Counted from the first letter of the stretch, positions 16,383 through 40,589 are shown. The stretch is 40,589 nt of DNA from Bacteroidota bacterium (GCA_028873925.1 JAPPNA010000094.1:1-40589); one strand, 5' to 3'. A program made the numbers and translations. The notes: a model not told the origin generated them from the sequence alone.

Positions 16383-16398
16383 GTGCCAATTCACCGTG
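16383..16398 (+). repeat. left terminal inverted repeat of the IS
   Basis: GTGCCAATTCACCGTG; its reverse complement matches 17693-17708 at 14 of 16 bases. It lies just before the transposase remnant and at the point where the orfA match ends. Confidence 0.6.
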
Positions 16399-17653
16399 AA
16401 CAGCGGCCATTATGATACCCGATTCGGCGGTCTGTTTCTGTTTGTGAAGGACCTCTGTGAGCTGCACCTAGCGCAGGCAACCGCCGCCCTGCCAGGCAGC
16501 GCTCAGCTGCCGGCAGATTGTATGATCCGCTCCCTGCTCGCGCTAAAGCTCTGGGGGATCGGGTGCCCCAGCCATGTTATGCCTTACATCCTGGATGAAG
16601 GTCCGCCGTTGTTTGGGACTCAATGTGTTGCCGAAGAAGTCCACACTCACCGAATACAGTGCACGCGTGGCTACCGGACAGTTGGACGATCTGATGGACC
16701 TGTGGGATACGCAGGCCGCAAAAAAGCTGCCGCAAGCAGCGGCTCGCTGGATCTGGATTGTCACGCCATTCCGCATCACGGCACCACCATGGAGAAACAT
16801 TTCGTCTCCAGCCGCCACCAGCGGGGCGAGCTGGCGCTGGTGGCACGGGATGCCAGTCAGCGGGCGTTGATTTATGCCAGTGCAAAGATCACCAATGTCA
16901 TCGCAGAACAATGCGGTGATTACGTTTGTGGACATCTGGAAGGAACGTACCGGAAAGCTGCCTGATGAGCTCGTCTTTGACAGCCGCTTTACGACTTATC
17001 CGTTCATGGAACAGCTCAACGAACGCGGCATTCTGTTTCTAACGCTGCGCAAGCGGTTCCCGCGGCTCCTTGAGGAGATCAGCCAGCAGCCCCCTGAGGC
17101 CTGGAAAAAGGTCTCCCTCTCCAATATCGGACACCAATACCGGACACCCTATGTGCTGGAGGCCAGAGTTAGGATCAAGGCCTATGAAGGGGAGCTGAGT
17201 CAGTTGGCGGTCAGGGGACTGGGTCACATCAAACCGACCATTCTGCTGACCAACTACACTCAGACCGGCAGCGCCGCGCTCATTGACCGCTACGCCCGGC
17301 GCATGCTGGTAGAAAATGCCATTGAGGAGTTCATCAACTTCTTCCACATGGATGCCCTCAGTGCAGCCGTGCCGCTCAACATTGATGTGGATCTGCAGCT
17401 CACGCTGATCGGAAGTGCACTCTACCGCATGCTGGCCAACAGGCTCCCGCCACCGTATGCCAAGAACAAAGCGCGCATGTTGTTTAGAAACTTTGTGGAT
17501 GTGCCGACCCGGATCAAAATCACGCCGGATCAGATCATAGTCCGACGGAAACGCCGCACCCACAACAGCCTGCTCAGAGAGGCCGGATACGTCGGATCAC
17601 AGGGATCGATTCCATGGATGGACAATCGCGAATTCGTGCTGGACTACCTCTGA
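16396..17653 (+). pseudogene. frameshifted DDE transposase (YREK-like, IS4 superfamily)
   Basis: The transposase is spread over alternating frames. The 5' part (16396 to about 16600) is in the frame of 16396. About 16600-16735 continues in the +1 frame, with GLNVLPKKSTLTEYS and GQLDDLMDLW. About 16740-16890 returns to the first frame, with the first catalytic Asp region SLDLDCHAIPHHG. From about 16890 to 17653 the +1 frame carries ELVFDSRFTTYPF (second Asp) and YARRMLVENAIEEFI, close to the Y-(2)-R-(3)-E-(6)-K signature but with Ile at the Lys position. At least three frameshifts are therefore needed. The last 259 codons are uninterrupted and well conserved in character, so decay is recent. 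Confidence 0.7.
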
Positions 17654-29141: not shown

Positions 29142-29930
29142 TCACCTGCGCTGATAAACGCGCACATAGTCAACAGCCATGGACTGAGGGAAGGCGGTCG
29201 TATCTACGGTGCCGCCCCACGCCCCGCCTACCGCCACATTGAGAATCAGTGAGAAGGGCTTGTCAAACGGCCAGCTTTCCGGCGAACGGTCTGCGGCGAC
29301 GTAGGTCAGCACGGGCCGGTCATCGACAAACGTGCGGATCGTATCCGCACTCCACTCCAGCACATAGGCATGCAACTGCGTCGTAGCGGTCGGGACTTCA
29401 ATGACACCGGTCTTTTGGGTACCGGCCTGCCAATTATATTTCCTTGTGTGGACAGAGGAATGGATCACGCCCGGGTCATGTCCGACATGCTCCATGATAT
29501 CAATCTCGCCCACATCCGGCCATCCTCCCATAGGGAAAGTCCAGTCCGAAGGCATCAGCCATATTGCCGGCCATGTCCCGCGCGCAACCGGTACGCGGGC
29601 GGCAATCTCAAATCGCCCGTACCTCCAATCGCCCAGCCCCCTTGAGGTCAGCCGGGTGGAGGTGAAAGCGCGGTGCTGATACGGTTCGTGGTGCGCGGTA
29701 ATGCGCAGGATACCATCGGATACGTACGCGTTTTGGGCACGCCGGTCAGTGTAGAACTGGAGTTCGTTGTTGCCCCAGCCGTGCCCACCAACCGCATAGG
29801 TCCAGCGTGTGGAATCCGGCAGTCCCGTATAGTCAAATTCATCGGACCAGACCAGCGTCCAGTCCGACTCCGCTATCGGCCGCGGGGCCGCCAGCAGACA
29901 CATCATGATCCACCAGACGGAAGTGACCAT
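29142..29930 (-). CDS. secreted GH16 endo-beta-1,3-glucanase (laminarinase-like)
   Basis: A 262-residue glycoside hydrolase family 16 protein. A short signal peptide (about residues 1-20, ending PIA) precedes a single catalytic jelly-roll. The retaining-enzyme signature is GEIDIMEHVG, with nucleophile Glu142, Asp144 and acid/base Glu147. The extra Met in EIDIMEH gives the beta-bulge form typical of laminarinases and lichenases. WDEF-type WSDEFDY, GGHGWGNNELQFYT and GGAWGG are further GH16_3 features. No lipobox or carbohydrate-binding module is seen, so it is likely periplasmic or released. Its ATG shares a base with the phosphorylase stop (TAATG), so it is coupled to the glucan locus. Confidence 0.92.
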   Translation of the reverse strand: MVTSVWWIMMCLLAAPRPIAESDWTLVWSDEFDYTGLPDSTRWTYAVGGHGWGNNELQFYTDRRAQNAYVSDGILRITAHHEPYQHRAFTSTRLTSRGLGDWRYGRFEIAARVPVARGTWPAIWLMPSDWTFPMGGWPDVGEIDIMEHVGHDPGVIHSSVHTRKYNWQAGTQKTGVIEVPTATTQLHAYVLEWSADTIRTFVDDRPVLTYVAADRSPESWPFDKPFSLILNVAVGGAWGGTVDTTAFPQSMAVDYVRVYQRR

Positions 29931-32900
29931 TACGAGGGAAGACCGGGTTGAATGCCTACCTCAATGCGCCGAATGCTTCCGGTACGTCCAAAGATGGCCT
30001 TACTTTCCGGGCGCGTGAGCGTCAGAGCACCGCGCGTAAGGGTGCCTTCGCCAGCACGTAAAAGGGTCAGCCGTGGCGCATCGGTCAGTGTGTAGATGAT
30101 GGGTACCTGACACAGGGTAAAGCCCAGCGAGCCCGGCTTCAGTTCAATGATCGCCTCTTCTTGGGCCCAGTCAAAAGTGCGCAGCAGGCCGAGCCGCGCC
30201 AGGAATTCCGACTTGCGCAGCAGGGCCGGATCGAAGGTAATCCGGCCTTCGGCCACACGAACGCCCAGTTCCCCCCACCGGGCCAGCAGATCTTCCTTGA
30301 CGCGTCCGGTAAGTCCCGGCTGCCGGGCCCTTGTGTCTGAGGAAGAATGAGAATGGGGATCCACCGGGAAAGCACCAAACTGTCCGGGGTCCCAGTCATA
30401 TCCGAGGCCCTTGCGGATGAAGTAGTAATGGCGGGCAAGCGCAGCCAGTACCGCCGCCGACTCGTCAGCCTCTTTCGCTTTCCAGAAGACCCGCTGAACC
30501 GCCAGCATGAGCTTGGAAACCATATGCCAGTACACGCAGCCCAAACCCTCATACTTGAAAAAGCGTGTGGCCCGTCCGTTGAATTTGTCCTGGCCGAACA
30601 GTTCCCGATAAAGGGTTAGGATCCGAATTCGGTCACGGTTTACCGCCTTGGCGTAGCCATCGAGCTTCAATTCGTCCAACAGCTGCTCCAGCCGTTTCTC
30701 ATTGATGAGCGCGTGATGAAAATAATAGTCACCGGTCGGATTGCGGCCGATAAGCCGCCCGTCACCGGCTGCAATCATTTTTCGTACCAGCGAGCAGCGC
30801 ACGAGATGATTGGCTCCGATACTGTTGAGACTCATGAAACGCTTCGGCGGCTGGTCTGGATAAAGCAGAAAACTCTGCTGAGCTTTGGACCATAAGGCAC
30901 TCTTTCTGAGCGTATCCAGCAGTTCAGCGGCCTCAGTGCCGGTAAGCAGACCGGATTCGAGCGCGGCCACCTGCCCTTCCAGCATCAGCAGATTCGGGCT
31001 GATTGCGAGGGTCGAATCAGCCATCGGGGTCATCCAGAAATACGCGTGGTGCAGCCCGCTGTCGGTGCGCGCGCCGCGCAGGGTTGGGGTGATGGCCCGG
31101 CGGGCTGCTTCTGCAAAACGGGTCAGCTCGTCAAATCCCACCTGGGTCGGCGGTCCGCTGAGTCCCTCCTGGTAGAGTGTCCTGCGATACTCCGTCCCCG
31201 CCCGGCCCAGCTCTTCGAGGGCTGATTTGCGCGCCGCAGGGTCAATGGCGGCCTGCGTCGGATTCAGGGCGGACAATGCATCACCGGTGCGGGTAATCAG
31301 TTTGGCCACCGCCCCGCTGATGGCTATAGATTGCGTATCACGCGATTTGAATAGTCGGCCCAGCAGCTGCAAATGCGCATGCAGGTGCTGCAGGGTGATC
31401 ATAGAGCATCCCCGTCCGGGCATTCCGTTAAGCGCATCATTCCACTCCGGGCGGTCGGTATTCATCCAGATGCCTGCCCCCGGCACGAAGTTGGACAGCT
31501 TCGCCAGCACGGGTACCAGAAGTTTTTCCGCAAGCGTAACAAGAACGGGCTGGCCCTCCGCATCCGGCAGCAGGCACCCATCCGATCCGATGTCCTGAAC
31601 ATGCTTACGGATTTGGTCATTCAGGGCTGTATCAAACCTGATGCCGCAATGGGAATCCGCGAGGGTCTCATCAAGGGATCCGAGACGGTAGGGCACATTT
31701 GCGTACGCATAGGCCCGCTCCGAGAGGATAGTGGCCAACATTCCGGGATAGTACGCTTCGGCCTGTTCCAGCAGCCTGAGGAGGTAAACGATCTGGTGAT
31801 CGCCCCAGTATCCGATATGGGACCAGGGGTCATTCGGATCCGGGACTTCCCAGTCTATGCCGCTGCGTGAGATGCGGTAGGGATTGTAGCCATCTGCGGT
31901 GGACGCGTTCACAAATACCGCAATCATGCGCGGTAGCAGCAGCGGGTATGAGCATGCCAGGGCCTCCCAGTTCTGAAAAACGTCGCGCCAGTTCCCTTCA
32001 TAATGGAGGCGGAGGTGCCCGTTTTCATCGTGCAGTTCAATATTGAACCTGTTCCACGGCCGGCTGGGGTCGCCGTGGCGTCGGCCGTACCCCAACGGCA
32101 TGTACTCGGCCAGCAGCCGATTGAGCTGCGGATCATCACAGGATGGGAGCTTATCCAGATCACACTGCGCAGGCATTTGGTCCCAGAACGGCTTGTCCGT
32201 CAGGGTGCGATTACGCGTGCGTACAAACGCCAGCAGGTCCGACTTCCGTACATGGATTCGGTCTACGGGAATCCCGCCGCGCTGGATGTTGTAGAGTGTA
32301 TTGAGTCCGTGACGCTGGTCATGTGTTCGGTCGCTCGTATACTGGTGGCCATCTGCGGCGGCCACGATGGCCCTGAGCTCCCGGTCGCCTTTCCTGAGAT
32401 CCAGCAGGAGGTCGGTTCGCAGGGCCGCGCGATCTTTGATCTGCTCCAGCAGGCGGGCCACATCGCCGACTCCCTGTTCCACATTAGCAATGAGGCTCCA
32501 GTCAACACTCTTTTCCGGATTGATCCGCCAGGTGTATTCAGTGAAGAAGGCTCCGCGAACGGCCCTTTGGATATGCTCACTCTGTATCACCTGTCCCTGT
32601 CTGAACAGGGACAGCTGACGGGAAGAAAGCAGAATGTTTTTGGGGGTAACCTGCGGTCTGGCGGAGGGCCCGATACTCCAGACCGTGTTGGCCAAGAGCG
32701 CCTCAGCCGGTTCCGGGCGATCCACAATGAGCGAACTGAGCCGAAACAGTCCGATGCCCTGCTCAATCTCACTGATCTTGTAGCCATCCACCAGGGTGCT
32801 TCGGGTGTCCTGCAGTGCGGTGGGCACCCCGGGAGGCAGCACATTCTGCAGCCCATCCAGCACACGGACGCGGATTGGGAATTTCCAAAGGCTTTCCAGC

Positions 32901-33442
32901 CGGGCCTGCCGGACAAACCCAAACGAGGGCGCGATCTGCCAGGAATATTCAAATCGCAGGCTCAAGTCGTGATTGATTTCCTCAAAGGTGATCCGGTTGC
33001 CCATGCTGCCTTTGCGCAGAATGCGGGTGATCCGGTACAGCCCCTCGTATCGGTCAGTGAACGGCTCCCACAGCAGCGTCTGATGCTGGCGTTCCACCAG
33101 GATGAGGGTTTTGGGCCCGGTGTGGCTGGCGGCATCATGCAGCTTATCGTCGGTGACATAGGGAAACAGTGCACCCTCACTGGATCTGCGGCCGGCCGTT
33201 AGTGCGCCCGTACTGGAGAGAAACATCCAGTGATCGCTCGGGCTGGCCAAGGCAACCAGGAACGGCTGCATCCTGTCCACATGGGTGATGCAGTAAACCT
33301 GGTCTCCTGCGATCTCCAGCAGCCTGCCTCGCAAGCGGCCCTCTCCAGACTTTAGGGCCGACTTAGCTACATGCACACCCTCTGCGTCACCCGTCCTCAA
33401 CGAGGAATGGGATATTCGCGTGCGCCGCGTTGCCTTGTCCAT
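29930..33442 (-). CDS. large GH94-clan phosphorylase, GH149-like (putative beta-1,3-oligoglucan phosphorylase)
   Basis: A 1170-residue cytoplasmic enzyme without signal peptide. An N-terminal beta-sandwich-rich region (about residues 40-350) is followed by an (alpha/alpha)6-barrel. Features shared with inverting phosphorylases of the GH94 type are YWGDHQIVYLLRLLEQ (about 545-560) and TDRPEWNDALNG (662-673), whose Asp669 occupies the place of the general acid in DWND of cellobiose phosphorylase. The size of about 1100-1200 residues and the pairing with a GH16 laminarinase favour GH149; GH161 is the alternative. Such enzymes release glucose-1-phosphate from beta-1,3-oligoglucosides. ATG 33440-33442 overlaps the fusion gene by 56 bases. 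A GTG at 33374-33376 would start 11 bases after its stop and is a reasonable alternative. Confidence 0.75.
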   Translation of the reverse strand: MDKATRRTRISHSSLRTGDAEGVHVAKSALKSGEGRLRGRLLEIAGDQVYCITHVDRMQPFLVALASPSDHWMFLSSTGALTAGRRSSEGALFPYVTDDKLHDAASHTGPKTLILVERQHQTLLWEPFTDRYEGLYRITRILRKGSMGNRITFEEINHDLSLRFEYSWQIAPSFGFVRQARLESLWKFPIRVRVLDGLQNVLPPGVPTALQDTRSTLVDGYKISEIEQGIGLFRLSSLIVDRPEPAEALLANTVWSIGPSARPQVTPKNILLSSRQLSLFRQGQVIQSEHIQRAVRGAFFTEYTWRINPEKSVDWSLIANVEQGVGDVARLLEQIKDRAALRTDLLLDLRKGDRELRAIVAAADGHQYTSDRTHDQRHGLNTLYNIQRGGIPVDRIHVRKSDLLAFVRTRNRTLTDKPFWDQMPAQCDLDKLPSCDDPQLNRLLAEYMPLGYGRRHGDPSRPWNRFNIELHDENGHLRLHYEGNWRDVFQNWEALACSYPLLLPRMIAVFVNASTADGYNPYRISRSGIDWEVPDPNDPWSHIGYWGDHQIVYLLRLLEQAEAYYPGMLATILSERAYAYANVPYRLGSLDETLADSHCGIRFDTALNDQIRKHVQDIGSDGCLLPDAEGQPVLVTLAEKLLVPVLAKLSNFVPGAGIWMNTDRPEWNDALNGMPGRGCSMITLQHLHAHLQLLGRLFKSRDTQSIAISGAVAKLITRTGDALSALNPTQAAIDPAARKSALEELGRAGTEYRRTLYQEGLSGPPTQVGFDELTRFAEAARRAITPTLRGARTDSGLHHAYFWMTPMADSTLAISPNLLMLEGQVAALESGLLTGTEAAELLDTLRKSALWSKAQQSFLLYPDQPPKRFMSLNSIGANHLVRCSLVRKMIAAGDGRLIGRNPTGDYYFHHALINEKRLEQLLDELKLDGYAKAVNRDRIRILTLYRELFGQDKFNGRATRFFKYEGLGCVYWHMVSKLMLAVQRVFWKAKEADESAAVLAALARHYYFIRKGLGYDWDPGQFGAFPVDPHSHSSSDTRARQPGLTGRVKEDLLARWGELGVRVAEGRITFDPALLRKSEFLARLGLLRTFDWAQEEAIIELKPGSLGFTLCQVPIIYTLTDAPRLTLLRAGEGTLTRGALTLTRPESKAIFGRTGSIRRIEVGIQPGLPS

Positions 33443-36305
33443 CGCTCACGTAAATAAACAGTCGGTAAGGACCCGGATCAGCGGGCGCCAATACCGAAGG
33501 CGCATCGATCGGATCAATAGGAACAGAAACAGCCTCGGGAACGGCCTCATCATCACCGCCATGTCCCAGATCAGTGCTTTCCGGGAGGATTTCCCAGCGG
33601 TAGGTCAGCGGGTCGCCATCCGGGTCTGAAGCCTGTACCTGCGCGATATATTCGTCACCTGCCCTAACCGTTACGAAATCCATGGCCGTAAGGCCATTGA
33701 AGGTGAAGTCGTTAAGTGCAGGTGCCCGATTGTCTGGCCAGGTTCCGTTCCAGATTCGATGCATCACATCCACGGCGGATGTTTTTGAGCCATCCGCGGT
33801 GAAGAGTCCGTACCAGGTGGGGGTACGTTCCTGCTTTTGACCCCACAGGAAAACGTACGATCCGAGGCACAGTACCGTGTCGGAGGCAATGGCGGTCTGA
33901 TATCGGGCATCATAGAACTCAGCCTTGATGGTGCTGTTGTTTTCCACGGGTGCCCCCCAGGGGGTGCTCGGCACTTCCCAGTGCCCGGTGGCACCCCATT
34001 CAGTGACCATATACGGGCCATCCCAGCCGGAGTCCACCAGATAGCCGGGCAGATTAACAATATCCGCGTACATCTGAACGCTCAGCAGATCCAGATTCGG
34101 CGCGCGGGTCTTGATGTCTTGAGCCAGCTTCGGGTGGATTCCGGCCAGCATGGTGGTGGTAGGATGGTGGCCATCCACCTCGTGAATCATTTTGGAAATA
34201 TCGTTCACCGCATCCCACACGCGTGGATTCGTGGCCCCCAGGTTGAGTTCATTACCGATCCCCCACATCAGGAGCGCAGGATGATCCTTATACATCAGTA
34301 CCTCCTCGCGCACAGCGGCCAACTGGGCTGCTACGGCGGCGGAATCATTGTAGTTAAAGCCGAATACGCCCCGTCCGCTACCGGGCCGCTCGCGAGCGAT
34401 ATCCAGACCCATGGTGACCATCAGTCCGTTGGCGTGCGCCCGATCCAGCACTTCCATGCCCGTATCACGGCCGTTGTCGGTACGCCAGGTTCGGAATGAA
34501 TTGGCACCATGCCGGGCCAGCCGGTCGATGTCACCGAATTCAAGGCCCGCGCCGTTTATGTAGAAGGGCTCATCGTTGACATGCAGCAGATACCGGCCAT
34601 CCACCTGGCGCACCTCCACATGAGCGGGTCCCCCATCGGTTTGGGCGTTGGCCGCCGGGGCTCCGATGAGGAGGAGCAATCCAATAAGCGCAATTTTCGC
34701 TGCGGGACTTTTGCCAACGCGTGCAAGTGCGGATTCCAGTTCTTCCAAGGATTTGCCTTTGGTTTCGGGAAGGACCAAAATAATGAAAACCAGCCCTATT
34801 GCCGCGAATACCCCGTAGAGCAGGAATGTGAGCGAGCTGCCCAGATTGGCGAGTTCCCAAGGAAACACCAGCTGCACCAGAAAGCTGACTCCAGAGTTGA
34901 TCAGACCGACAAAGGAAATCGCCAGTGCGCGCACGCGATTAGGAAACAGTTCAGAAAACAGCACCCACATGACCGGTCCGACGGACACCGCAAAGGCGGC
35001 CACAAACCCCAGAATCCCCGTTAGGATGAGGGTTGGGTTCATACGGATGGCAGCCTCAATGAGGGCGGACTGATGCAGCGTCGCCAACTCCGCTCCCAGG
35101 GCCTGCTCAAGGGCCCCTTTGAAGGCAATGTCGGATTCAAACGTTACGTTGACCAGTCCGGCAAGCTGCTCGGCGGAAAGGCCTGCGGGCAGGATGGCAT
35201 CCGCCGCCAATGTGTAGGTGGCGGCCGAAAAGCCGTATGCGAGCATGGCCATGGCCACGGTGATGCCGGTCAGGCCGATAATCAGCAGCGGCTTGCGCCC
35301 CAGACGGTCAATCAGGGCGATAGCCACCAAGGTAAACACCAGATTGGTCAGCCCCACAAAGATAGCCTGCATGAAGGAGGCGTTGGTGCCGATACCAGAC
35401 TGCTCAAATATCATTGGCGCATAGAAGAACACTGCGTTTATGCCCACGATCTGCTGCAGAATGGCAATCACCACACCGATCAGGAGCACCAGGCGCAGAC
35501 TCGGGGCGAAAAGGGCCAGAAAACGTGTTCTCTCTCTCGTTTTTCCCGTCTCCAGGCTGGCCTGCACACTGGTCAGTTCCTGTTGGGCCGCTGTCTCGCC
35601 GCTGGCACGGACCATGACCCTGAGCCCCTCTTTTGCCCTTCCCTGCATCACCAGCCAGCGCGGGCTTTCCGGTACCATAAACAGCGCAAAGAAGTAAAGG
35701 ACAGCGGGCAGGGTTTCCAGTCCCAGCATCCAGCGCCAGTTATAGGGGCCGAACATTAAGGACTGCGCCCATGCGGCCTGACTGTCGCCCAAATGGAGAA
35801 TCAGGAAGTTGGTGAAAAAGGCGACGGAAATTCCGATTACGATGTTGAGCTGATTGAACGACACCATGCGTCCTCTAAGGGCTGGCGGTGACAGCTCTGC
35901 GATGTACATCGGAGCGATAATCAGTGACGCTCCGACACCTAATCCGCCCACCATCCGCGCGACTACCAGCAGCTGAAAAGATGGTGCCAGGGCTGATCCG
36001 ATGGCGGAAACGGCATATAGGATAGCAGCTCCGTAAAGCACCGCACGGCGCCCGATCCGGTCACTCAGCGGGCCAGCGACGAGCATGGCCAGGGTGGCGG
36101 TCAGCGTCAGTGAGGCCACGGCCCATCCCAGCTCAAGGCTGCTGAGGCTGAATTCCGTCTCAATAAACGGGACTACTCCCGAAATCACCGACGCATCAAA
36201 CCCCATCAGAAAGCCGCCCAAGGCGACAATCAGGGCGGTGCGGGCTACAAAGAATTTGTCGGACATATTGCGGAGGTCAAGACTGGGGTCATCATGAGCG
36301 CACAT
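33387..36305 (-). CDS. sugar porter (MFS) fused to a clan GH-A glycoside hydrolase
   Basis: A single 972-residue frame. Residues 1-520 are a complete sugar porter with SDRIGRR (81-87), VPESPRW (211-217), QQIVGINAVFFY (284-295), DRLGRK (333-338) and the terminal PETKGKSLEELE (513-524). Residues 535-554 are a further hydrophobic stretch ending PAANA before Gln555, just like a signal peptide with an AxA cleavage site. Residues about 560-858 form a TIM-barrel hydrolase with WGIGNEL (acid/base Glu686) and VTEWG (nucleophile Glu769), resembling the GH2 barrel or GH5/GH158-like enzymes. Residues 859-972 are an Ig/cadherin-like module (QASDPDGDPLTYRWEI). No ATG or GTG lies at the joint, so separate translation is not evident. 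An in-frame ATG at 36264-36266 is an alternative start. Confidence 0.85.
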   Translation of the reverse strand: MCAHDDPSLDLRNMSDKFFVARTALIVALGGFLMGFDASVISGVVPFIETEFSLSSLELGWAVASLTLTATLAMLVAGPLSDRIGRRAVLYGAAILYAVSAIGSALAPSFQLLVVARMVGGLGVGASLIIAPMYIAELSPPALRGRMVSFNQLNIVIGISVAFFTNFLILHLGDSQAAWAQSLMFGPYNWRWMLGLETLPAVLYFFALFMVPESPRWLVMQGRAKEGLRVMVRASGETAAQQELTSVQASLETGKTRERTRFLALFAPSLRLVLLIGVVIAILQQIVGINAVFFYAPMIFEQSGIGTNASFMQAIFVGLTNLVFTLVAIALIDRLGRKPLLIIGLTGITVAMAMLAYGFSAATYTLAADAILPAGLSAEQLAGLVNVTFESDIAFKGALEQALGAELATLHQSALIEAAIRMNPTLILTGILGFVAAFAVSVGPVMWVLFSELFPNRVRALAISFVGLINSGVSFLVQLVFPWELANLGSSLTFLLYGVFAAIGLVFIILVLPETKGKSLEELESALARVGKSPAAKIALIGLLLLIGAPAANAQTDGGPAHVEVRQVDGRYLLHVNDEPFYINGAGLEFGDIDRLARHGANSFRTWRTDNGRDTGMEVLDRAHANGLMVTMGLDIARERPGSGRGVFGFNYNDSAAVAAQLAAVREEVLMYKDHPALLMWGIGNELNLGATNPRVWDAVNDISKMIHEVDGHHPTTTMLAGIHPKLAQDIKTRAPNLDLLSVQMYADIVNLPGYLVDSGWDGPYMVTEWGATGHWEVPSTPWGAPVENNSTIKAEFYDARYQTAIASDTVLCLGSYVFLWGQKQERTPTWYGLFTADGSKTSAVDVMHRIWNGTWPDNRAPALNDFTFNGLTAMDFVTVRAGDEYIAQVQASDPDGDPLTYRWEILPESTDLGHGGDDEAVPEAVSVPIDPIDAPSVLAPADPGPYRLFIYVSDGQGNAAHANIPFLVEDG

Positions 36306-36352: not shown

Positions 36353-37465
36353 TCACAGCTCTGCAATTAGGTCCGTCCATTTCTTGCGCACAATGGATTC
36401 TCCGAAGTGGTTTTCGTAGCGTTGGCGGGCCTGCCCGGAAAAGGCCCGCCAGGTATTGCGCTGGATGAGAGTCCTAAGCGCCTGAACGATTTCTTCCGGG
36501 CATTTTGGGGCCACAAACAGTGCTTCCCGGCCTTCCCGGACCATTTCTTCAATGGAGGCGTGCCGGGTAACGATCACCGGCGTGCCCGCGCTGAGGGCCT
36601 CAATAATGGTCATCGGCTGTGCTTCAACCGGGTAGTAGGTGGGCAGCACAAAGACATCGGCGGCCAGAAACAGGGCCTGTACGCGCTGACGGTCGGCAAT
36701 GGGTCCGTGCGCGCGCACCAAGCCGCCCAGTCCCAAGGCTTTAATCCGCCCTGCAAACGCGTCGGCATCGGTTTGTGAATTCCATCGACCGGCAAAGTCC
36801 GCTTCTACGACCAGCCCCTGCTGTCGGGCCAGAGCCACGGCTTCAAGCACATCCAGGTAGCCTTTTTCGGCAATCATGTTGCTCAGATAGAGCACACGCA
36901 GACTGCGGCCTGCGGCATCGGATTGCACTTTGGCTGACAGGTCTTTTTTCGTGGCGCAGGGCGGCACATAGTTGGGAATGACCCGCAGTTTGTCTGCCGG
37001 AATCCAGTCGGTCAACGTTTCGGCCAGGCTCGCACTTTGAATAACATACCGGTCGATGCGACGCATCAGCCGGCGGGCGGTGGGACCGGTGAGGTGCCGC
37101 GCGAACACGTTGCTGAAGTTTCCCCAGTGAATCGACGCGACGATTTTCTGTCCCGGGTTGAAACAGGGCACCACAGTCATCAGGTCGCGCCAGTGCCCCA
37201 GCATCTGGCTGGAGATGGAGCACCAGATTACCGGGGCAAGATCCGCCAGGGCCTGGCGCAGTCTGGGTTGGAGTCTCAGGTAGTGGAGCGCAGTTCCGCC
37301 GATACGGGCCGCTCCCTTGGGCTGCAGGTCGGTGCCGAGATGGGAGGTGGAGAAATTCCGCACATCAAACTCATCTCTGAGCAGGTCAGACAGGCATTGG
37401 GTAAAGATGGTCTGCCCGTCCCTTGGGGGAGGGAACCGTCCCACGATATGTAGCCGCTGTGCCAT
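36353..37465 (-). CDS. glycosyltransferase, GT4-like
   Basis: A 370-residue GT-B fold glycosyltransferase, probably cytoplasmic and peripheral to the membrane. The N-terminal domain opens with LHIVGRFPPPRDGQTIFTQ. The C-terminal donor-binding domain has LRVLYLSNMIAEKGYLDVLEA (about residues 189-209), VFVLPTYYPVEAQPMTIIEALSAGTPVI (about 274-301) containing the family's E-x7-E motif (Glu283 and Glu290, approximate), and IEEMVREGREALFV. Donor and acceptor are unknown. It lies 47 bases upstream of the transporter-hydrolase gene on the same strand and may share its transcript, although synthesis of surface glycan would be a different task from glucan use. Confidence 0.87.
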   Translation of the reverse strand: MAQRLHIVGRFPPPRDGQTIFTQCLSDLLRDEFDVRNFSTSHLGTDLQPKGAARIGGTALHYLRLQPRLRQALADLAPVIWCSISSQMLGHWRDLMTVVPCFNPGQKIVASIHWGNFSNVFARHLTGPTARRLMRRIDRYVIQSASLAETLTDWIPADKLRVIPNYVPPCATKKDLSAKVQSDAAGRSLRVLYLSNMIAEKGYLDVLEAVALARQQGLVVEADFAGRWNSQTDADAFAGRIKALGLGGLVRAHGPIADRQRVQALFLAADVFVLPTYYPVEAQPMTIIEALSAGTPVIVTRHASIEEMVREGREALFVAPKCPEEIVQALRTLIQRNTWRAFSGQARQRYENHFGESIVRKKWTDLIAEL

Positions 37466-37926: not shown

Positions 37927-38343
37927 TCACAGGTCCTGCAACTGTCTGAGGGTGCGATCAATTGAGGCGTTCTGAATCAGCTCACGGCGTTCCCATTGGG
38001 CCAGCGCCGTTTCGCCAAATCCCGCGAGGCGGGCAAAGGCGGCACGCGACAGACCGCGGCTGTGGCGGATTGCACGGATTGCCCGTGGAGTTAGAACTCC
38101 AAGATGCTGGCAGATGGCATCATGCCGCGCTATCTCGGCTTGTTCCCCGGTGTAGGAATTCAGGCAATGGGGGCATGTATGCACAGGCACATCAGCACTG
38201 AGTTCCACCGTATCGGCTCCGGTACCATATATGAAGGGGTCGCGAATCAGCTCAGTAATGAGCCCCGATTTTCCGCACAGCTCGCAGGAATGTGGACCGG
38301 GAATGGACCGCAGCATAGTCGGTCGGCCGGCAATCATGTTCAT
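37927..38343 (-). CDS. MqsA/YgiT-like zinc-finger HTH antitoxin (orphan)
   Basis: A 138-residue protein with the MqsA architecture. An N-terminal zinc knuckle has CxxC at 20-23 (CELC) and 57-60 (CPHC). A C-terminal helix-turn-helix of the Xre/MqsA type follows, VLTPRAIRAIRHSRGLSRAAFARLAGFGETALAQWERRE (about residues 83-121). In MqsRA-type systems such a protein neutralises a small RNase and represses the operon. No MqsR-like or other toxin frame is visible immediately on either side, so this is an orphan antitoxin or a stand-alone regulator. Start choice between ATG 38341-38343 and 38335-38337 is open. It is preceded by a 10-base palindrome. Confidence 0.72.
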   Translation of the reverse strand: MNMIAGRPTMLRSIPGPHSCELCGKSGLITELIRDPFIYGTGADTVELSADVPVHTCPHCLNSYTGEQAEIARHDAICQHLGVLTPRAIRAIRHSRGLSRAAFARLAGFGETALAQWERRELIQNASIDRTLRQLQDL

Positions 38344-38362
38344 CGAAATCAATTTGGTGAAC

Positions 38363-38839: not shown

Positions 38840-40589
38840 TCACGCAAAATCACTTTCTACCCCTTTCAGAATTGTAGCCAAATCCGAGACCCGCTGTTCC
38901 CGTTCCAAGTATTCACGGTAGCTCCGCTCTGCTTCAAGCACAAGTTGATCGTAGGTGATGTATCGGGCATCAATGGACCTCAGCATATTCGCGTTCTCCG
39001 TTGGTTCATCGTCCGGTTTAGGCGGGCGGCCCAAGATCGCGATTACTTCAATTTGGCGTGGCTCGTCGGGGAATTTCGCCTCCAGGCACTTGCGTAGGGC
39101 GGACCTGTATTTCTGGAGCTGTCCAACCAATGCTGTGGCTGTGATGGTCGTTTTGTACCTCTTGAGTTCAATAATGACATGTTTCCCTGCCGCTGTCTGA
39201 TAGCGAATATCAATTCGGCCCCTCTTCTCCTCGTCGGATAGCCCTGCCTCAACACCTTCAAATTCCTTCCGGACGACTTCCTCAATTCGGCCGTTTCGGG
39301 CGGCTCGCTCCCAAGTTGGATGCAGCAGCCAGAGGTGATCAAAAATGATCTTCTGGAGTACCCTTTCCAATGCCTCAGGCAGGCTGTTGATGAGTTTTCG
39401 GATCACCGCTAAGCGCCCCTTGGTAACCTCGTAGAAGTGAACAGCCTCAATTTCGTCAATTCTGGATATCAGCCGGCTCAGGGTATCAAAATCCTCGGGC
39501 GTTTCAAGAGCGTCCAACTCGCTTAGGGTGTCTGTTAAGGCCAATTTCTCAAATGCCAGCATGCTGGCCATGTAGATCTCCATTCGGGCCCTCTTATCTT
39601 TGAGACGGAGGGACTCAATCTTGCCAAACAACCGGATCGCAATTTTCTGTTGGTCCGGGCCTAACCGACTGTACCAGCGCTGCACATGTTCATGTTTCAT
39701 CGCCCGAACGGTGCCGCGCTCACGGCGCAGAGCTGTCCAGTCCGTCCGGACCGTATCCAGGGCCTTTCGAACAAATTCAACGATTGCCCTAAACCTTGGC
39801 GCATCCTCCTGAACGCTTTGGCGGCCACTGGTGATGATGTCATCTTCGTCCGTATCAAGAAAGTCCGCATTGATCTCGCCCAAAACGTAATCTGCGTAGA
39901 CCCCCGCCTCCTTGAATTCAGGTAAGAGGTCCTCATGAATCAACTTACCCCGCGCCATTACAACCATGGCACTGTTAACCGTGTCTATGTCGTCAGGCTT
40001 GTTGACCGTGCCAATCCAGCCGCTTATCTCATGTTGGCTGGTTGATCCATCCTCCAGTTTTACCTCTACAACGGAGCCGATTTCCTTCTGCGCCATAAGG
40101 GGTCCGACAGCCTCCGCCATGGCTTTACCACGATCCCCGAAGTGCCACACAAACTCAAGCTTCTTGTGGAAGTCTCTGTGTACGGGGGAAATCTGCTCAC
40201 CATTGACAGTTACCTCAAAGTTGTGCTCGGCTCCTATAATGCTGAATCTCCTCGCTAACCGTCGCCGCAGATGGGGCACCGCGCGGTTCAAGCTCTGGTT
40301 TAGTTCCCGTAGTACGAGGCGGGTGCCGCTCTGCTGACCATCGATAACCGGCTTTATCGGGTCGGGATGATACTCATCGGTTCTATTGCCTCTCACGCTC
40401 GCCTCAATATTCTGCCGGTCCATTCGGAACGCATTCCTTTGTCCATCCTCGACCGTGTGTACCTCCACGATCCGGGCAATGGAAAAGGCTGAGAGTTTTC
40501 CAATGCCCTTACGGCCCATAACAGGACGACCGCCAGACGGACCGCATAGCTGGGCGACGTGGGGCAGGTGCCGCAACCGGCTTCAATCT
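38840..40589 (-). CDS. GHKL (Hsp90-like) ATPase fused to a PD-(D/E)xK nuclease domain, 5' part missing
   Basis: About 578 codons are readable from a TTG at 40574-40576. GRPVMGRKGIGKLSAFSIA (about residues 16-34) carries the G-x-x-G-x-GK-S/A ATP-lid motif of GHKL ATPases, followed by a transducer-like domain with GTRLVLRELN. A helical middle section comes next, and the C-terminal nuclease-like motif is RIDIRYQ and IIELKRYK, with Asp456, Glu470 and Lys472 in PD-(D/E)xK order. The upstream N-box helix with its Mg-binding Asn and the DxGxG loop should precede this, but an in-frame TGA at 40583-40585 cuts the frame just before the window edge. The gene is therefore truncated, frameshifted or a pseudogene. 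Related ATPase-nuclease fusions occur in restriction and defence settings. Confidence 0.7.

Follow-up and report, generated by a model that had tools for sequence, protein, structure and literature searches.

The window analysed here is the whole stretch of 40,589 nucleotides from a Bacteroidota bacterium (GCA_028873925.1, JAPPNA010000094.1:1-40589), and it carries an open reading frame (ORF) at positions 33387-36305 in which a sugar porter of the major facilitator superfamily (MFS) is followed by a complete glycoside hydrolase of family GH158. The ORF encodes 972 amino acids in one frame with no internal stop codon, and lies on the minus strand, which corrects the initial annotation. Its start is probably at M14 (36266), because the homology of the relatives begins there (near residue 12-16). 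It is judged not to be a chance ORF, because two domains of 400-500 residues each match known families at 1e-70 or better. All features of the protein described below are on the minus strand.

The sugar-porter domain covers residues 14-528 (34722..36266) and has 12 predicted helices. Residues 24-358 match Sugar_tr PF00083 (2.2e-101, 340.4 bits against a cut-off of 22.3) and the NCBIfam model TIGR00879 for sugar porters is matched at 340.7 bits against a cut-off of 237.8, so the protein lies above the curated cut-offs of both models and belongs with the sugar-porter (SP) members of the MFS. The terminal PETKG motif was found at residues 513-517. When the full-length protein was modelled with AlphaFold (mean pLDDT 82, pTM 0.53), the porter helices extended to residue 511, and the GH158 barrel and the immunoglobulin (Ig)-like domain were obtained with confidence. 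The porter also contains an insert of about 60 residues (363-426; about 35028-35219 in the window) between two helices of its C-terminal half. The insert has no match to the sugar porter models, yet it is shared by the relatives that carry the same gene cassette; it is predicted to be periplasmic and forms short helices in the AlphaFold model.

The hydrolase part is assigned as a complete GH158 endo-β-1,3-glucanase of clan GH-A. A phmmer search with residues 560-970 against solved structures gave full-length matches to 9oro (2.7e-85) and 6pal (2.2e-72), both of which are GH158. The TIM-barrel catalytic domain covers about residues 560-860 (33726..34628), as judged from these matches and the model, and the C-terminal Ig-like domain covers about residues 863-970 (33396..33719), as judged from the 6pal alignment and the strands in the model. 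Alignment to 6pal places the catalytic acid/base pair at N685-E686 (34248..34253; N136-E137 in BuGH158) and the nucleophile at E769 (33999..34001; E220 in BuGH158). The fold of BuGH158 is a TIM barrel with a C-terminal Ig-like domain, and mutation of N136, E137 and E220 abolishes its activity (PMC7157763). N685, E686 and E769 are invariant among the relatives, and no second GH158 was found when the window genome was searched. The arrangement described in the initial annotation, i.e. a single frame running from a sugar porter ending in PETKG through a hydrophobic stretch to a GH-A hydrolase with both catalytic Glu residues and an Ig-like module, is thus borne out, and the hydrolase can now be named as GH158. 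Homology, together with the GH149 and GH16 genes nearby, suggests that this part would hydrolyse β-1,3-glucan.

Between the two domains lie a short former intergenic segment and what appears to be a retained signal peptide. The former segment, residues 529-537 (RVGKSPAAK; 34695..34721), has a net positive charge and is predicted to be cytoplasmic. Its last codon, AAA of K537 (34695-34697), sits at the position of the MFS stop codon of four relatives. Neither ATG nor GTG was found as a start in any frame of the joint. The following residues 538-554 (34644..34694), IALIGLLLLIGAPAANA, correspond on hydropathy, sequence and relatives to the h- and c-region of a signal peptide; they are 17 residues long with a hydropathy peak of 1.86, and end in a signal peptidase I-type site, AANA|Q, at 554/555, after which the mature side begins QTDGG. 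The relatives carry a lipobox or a signal peptidase I-type signal at the equivalent place. The fusion protein thus has an internal signal sequence with an AxA site behind a polytopic domain of 12 predicted helices. The AlphaFold model has a 14-residue low-confidence helix at 534-547 and low confidence over residues 543-558, and it does not decide between a tethered and a released hydrolase.

The neighbouring genes, also on the minus strand, allow the region to be classed as a β-1,3-glucan (laminarin-type) locus. The next gene downstream is a GH149 β-1,3-glucan phosphorylase (29930..33442; NF058639, 1305 bits against a cut-off of 1150), whose start is probably near 33331 because the family match begins at ORF residue 38. 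It is followed by a GH16 endo-glucanase (29142..29930; PF00722, 5.2e-20). In the closest relative examined (G001) the order MFS, GH158, GH149, GH16, M20 peptidase, Fe-S protein and Clp ATPase is the same as in the window. Upstream, at a distance of 47 bases from the fusion ORF, is a GT4-type glycosyltransferase gene (36353..37465), which also adjoins the MFS gene in the relative G007. Further along the same strand are an ORF resembling MqsA-type antitoxin proteins (37927-38352, under the cut-off) and a restriction enzyme of the BbrUII/HgiDII family (38840-40576, barely over the NCBIfam cut-off). On the plus strand at 16396-17653 are two ORFs that overlap in different frames and together correspond to a single 580-aa transposase-like ORF in G002, with weak hits to the IS1380/IS481 families; another copy of this gene, at the end of another contig of the same genome (C32), is also split, elsewhere in the gene.

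The combination MFS-GH158-GH149 was also seen in Rhodothermia, Cyclobacteriaceae, Maribacter, Lutibacter, Eudoraea and one Verrucomicrobiota genome, and the two genes that are fused in the window are separate in these relatives. A strong match was found in 46 of the 114 genomes of the order and, at a stricter threshold, in 63 of the 245 genomes of the class, where the window genome is alone in having a stop-free frame across both domains. No other MFS-GH158 fusion was found among 394 genomes sampled from the phylum, nor in 289 genomes from the phylum of the Verrucomicrobiota locus (L051, from a metagenome-assembled genome). The DNA was read for adjacent pairs and a stop lies between MFS and GH158 in all 38, with GH158 mostly having its own start with a lipobox or signal peptide; two of the relatives have signals like those of signal peptidase I at the GH158 start (LLQA|QE and ALRA|QD). 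The fusion was thus seen in one genome and is not a trait of the family. The initial annotation had named relatives with two separate genes at this site as evidence against its reading; such relatives are the rule, although this alone does not prove an artefact.

Some apparent exceptions were tracked and rejected. An open frame of 997 aa seemed to cover both parts in G112, but a TGA lies between them, while G003, G023, G380 and the genome of locus L046 align across both domains and have in-frame stops. The arrangement of the cassette also varies: in G007 about 2.3 kb is inserted between GH158 and MFS (L086, 8345-10614), and in a Cyclobacteriaceae genome (L054, 5001-7876) the order is GH158-MFS-GH149.

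The way in which the two frames were joined was analysed by measuring the spacer between porter residue 527 and the core of GH158 and by enumerating all single-base edits at the joint. The window has a spacer of 96 bases (0 mod 3); that of six near relatives (L011, L013, L016, L019, L020 and L022) is 100-118 bases long and in every case 1 mod 3. Among the 38 pairs, 28 are one base change away from fusion, and for the six near relatives this change is a one-base deletion. One T inserted before the K537 codon gives an MFS stop at the offset of L013, L016, L019 and L020, and the same insertion yields a signal peptide that starts from TTG, MAKVPQRKIALIGLLLLIGAPAANA. The loss of one base, in evolution or in assembly, would therefore be the simplest account, because the spacer frame differs and one restored base recreates both the stop and the signal peptide. 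Most of the enumerated insertions and deletions leave the MFS frame running 65-70 codons beyond PETKG, and a few insertions restore two plausible genes, which gives an assembly error some probability. Both domains are under normal constraint and show no decay, since the altered positions among otherwise invariant columns (5 of 232 in the MFS part and 2 of 139 in the GH part) are within the range of intact relatives. The proposal of the initial annotation that two neighbouring genes ran together with the signal peptide of the hydrolase kept is backed by this frame arithmetic and by the 38 separate-gene pairs.

The reading which we favour, and to which we give somewhat better than an even chance, is a fusion, specific to this lineage, between two adjacent genes of a β-1,3-glucan cassette, whose product is made as one chain, with GH158 exported and most probably cut off by signal peptidase I. 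In the ancestor the MFS and GH158 genes would have been in different frames with a short spacer, and one lost base would have abolished the MFS stop and brought the two into a single frame, so that the product is translated as a single chain. MFS sugar porters end in the cytoplasm. The porter would thus be inserted with a cytoplasmic C-terminus, and the old signal peptide, preceded by K/R, would act as a start-transfer segment through which GH158 reaches the periplasm. Cutting by signal peptidase I would then yield porter extended by a tail of 26 residues and, in roughly the same quantity, soluble GH158 in the periplasm. With its short hydrophobic part and the AANA|Q at its end, the segment resembles a cleavable signal peptide more than a membrane anchor, and such release is therefore judged more probable than a stable thirteenth helix. 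Thereafter, GH158 would shorten β-1,3-glucan fragments, the porter would import the products and cytoplasmic GH149 would phosphorolyse them; the substrate of the cassette is assigned here by homology.

Several points weigh against this reading. The genome is the only one of its genus among those compared and is split into 185 contigs, an assembly error would yield the identical one-base difference, and we infer that a signal peptide placed after 12 helices is cut. If a base is missing from the assembly near 34690-34740, the window would hold two ordinary, slightly overlapping genes, with GH158 starting from TTG with the signal peptide recreated by the inserted T. We regard this as unlikely but as the most serious of the alternatives. 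That one base should return both a good signal peptide and an MFS stop at the offset of four relatives speaks for it, as does the presence of two genes in every other genome with the MFS-GH158 pair; against this, it would need a TTG start, as the joint offers no other, and the base is not within a long homopolymer. On the same contig, the remaining long conserved genes (ClpB/C-type ATPase, FtsK, GcvT, SRP54, GH149 and others) are all intact, and when the 43 kb of the window genome that could be aligned to part of a complete relative were compared, which is too little for a firm error rate, the only frame-split genes found were the two copies of the transposase-like gene and a short match that is weak.

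If the fusion is real, its signal segment may instead stay in the membrane as a thirteenth helix which anchors GH158 to its own importer on the periplasmic side and so couples hydrolysis directly to uptake. The segment is hydrophobic and has positive residues on its cytoplasmic flank, which would suit such a tether, and coupling has been suggested for fused enzymes by the authors of the MFS-GH17 work (PMC6246565). The same segment is short and runs into an AxA site of signal peptidase I type, two relatives have signals of that type at this very place, and the model has low confidence for residues 543-558, all of which makes a stable tether distinctly improbable. Only a shade better is the prospect of a real 13-helix importer in which the signal peptide has turned into an anchor and a periplasmic β-1,3-glucanase frees its products at the mouth of the importer. 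Last, the fusion may be real and yet non-functional as such, i.e. a recent and possibly slightly harmful loss of a stop that is heading for loss or repair. Its occurrence in one species only fits this idea, but with both domains normally constrained and all catalytic residues kept we consider it very improbable.

The fusion, if real, would matter through its parallel with other laminarin systems. The use of laminarin is a large flow of carbon in the sea, and independent fusions of unrelated MFS transporters with unrelated β-1,3-glucan enzymes (MFS_2 and GH17 in one case, a sugar porter and GH158 in the other) would, if true, suggest that joining hydrolysis to uptake pays in laminarin use. The fusion itself is a single unverified case and so is of limited weight. 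The conserved MFS-GH158-GH149 cassette offers a testable route of β-1,3-glucan import outside the classical GH17 loci.

The known systems include the separate-gene MFS-GH158-GH149 cassettes of Rhodothermia, other Bacteroidota and Verrucomicrobiota, which have orthologous genes in the same order and differ in being two genes with a stop between them, GH158 having its own lipobox or signal peptide. The enzyme part resembles BuGH158 of Bacteroides uniformis (6PAL) and GH158(Pro) (9ORO) in both catalytic Glu residues and in the TIM barrel with an Ig-like domain; those are stand-alone enzymes, and BuGH158 carries a type II (lipoprotein) signal peptide (PMC7157763). The proposed topology also has a counterpart in the present comparison, for which the respiratory chain provides the example. 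FbcH, the cytochrome b/c1 precursor of Bradyrhizobium japonicum, is a polytopic membrane protein fused in one frame to an exported protein, with an internal signal that is cut by signal peptidase; it belongs to a respiratory complex and its processing was shown by experiment, whereas that of the window protein is predicted.

The initial annotation knew of no described system of this kind, which does not hold, since MFS-GH17 fusions are known from laminarin loci (PMC6246565, PMC10108472) and were recovered in this analysis as well. FORMB_24740 (FbGH17B) of Formosa, reported in 2018, lies in a laminarin locus, consists of an MFS transporter with a GH17 domain behind it and is of a type common in marine Flavobacteriia; Unfried and colleagues proposed that hydrolysis and uptake might be coupled in it (PMC6246565). 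Such fusions were also reported for the majority of the variant 1 laminarin loci expressed during a bloom, in Bacteroidetes and gammaproteobacteria (PMC10108472). Among the genomes scanned, the sugar porter-GH158 form was found in the window genome only. MFS-GH17 fusions were recovered from several genomes of one family of the phylum by a search with PF00332. Eight partial loci read without a stop and two loci have separate genes; the seven full proteins are 781-855 aa long, with a PF13347 transporter (180-203 bits among known examples) and GH17. In that one bacterial family MFS_2 and GH17 are both fused (L181, L186, L192) and separate neighbours (L183, L190), and therefore fusion or fission occurred there too.

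The window protein is like the MFS-GH17 fusions in having an N-terminal MFS transporter and a C-terminal β-1,3-glucan-active enzyme of clan GH-A in one frame, in a laminarin locus with GH149, and adjacent unfused versions of the genes also exist in both cases. The MFS-GH17 transporters belong to PF13347 (MFS_2), whereas the window porter reaches 20.1 bits with this model, under the cut-off of 27, and gave no significant BLASTP match to those transporters; its enzyme is GH158, and the window protein has no PF00332 match. The window fusion has hydrophobic residues 538-554 between transporter and enzyme, whereas no hydrophobic segment or signal peptide follows the last transporter helix in the seven MFS-GH17 proteins, whose GH17 is therefore predicted to be cytoplasmic. 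A 13-helix tether, if true, would hence place GH158 on the opposite side of the membrane. The window protein is thus set apart from the MFS-GH17 group by its transporter family, its enzyme family and its predicted membrane side. The MFS-GH17 fusion is common and the MFS-GH158 fusion was found once; this precedent and the single fragmented genome reduce the novelty, and the principle of one chain was already known. What would be new here, if the fusion is real, is the joining of an MFS importer to a β-1,3-glucanase in a protein that differs from MFS-GH17 in both families.

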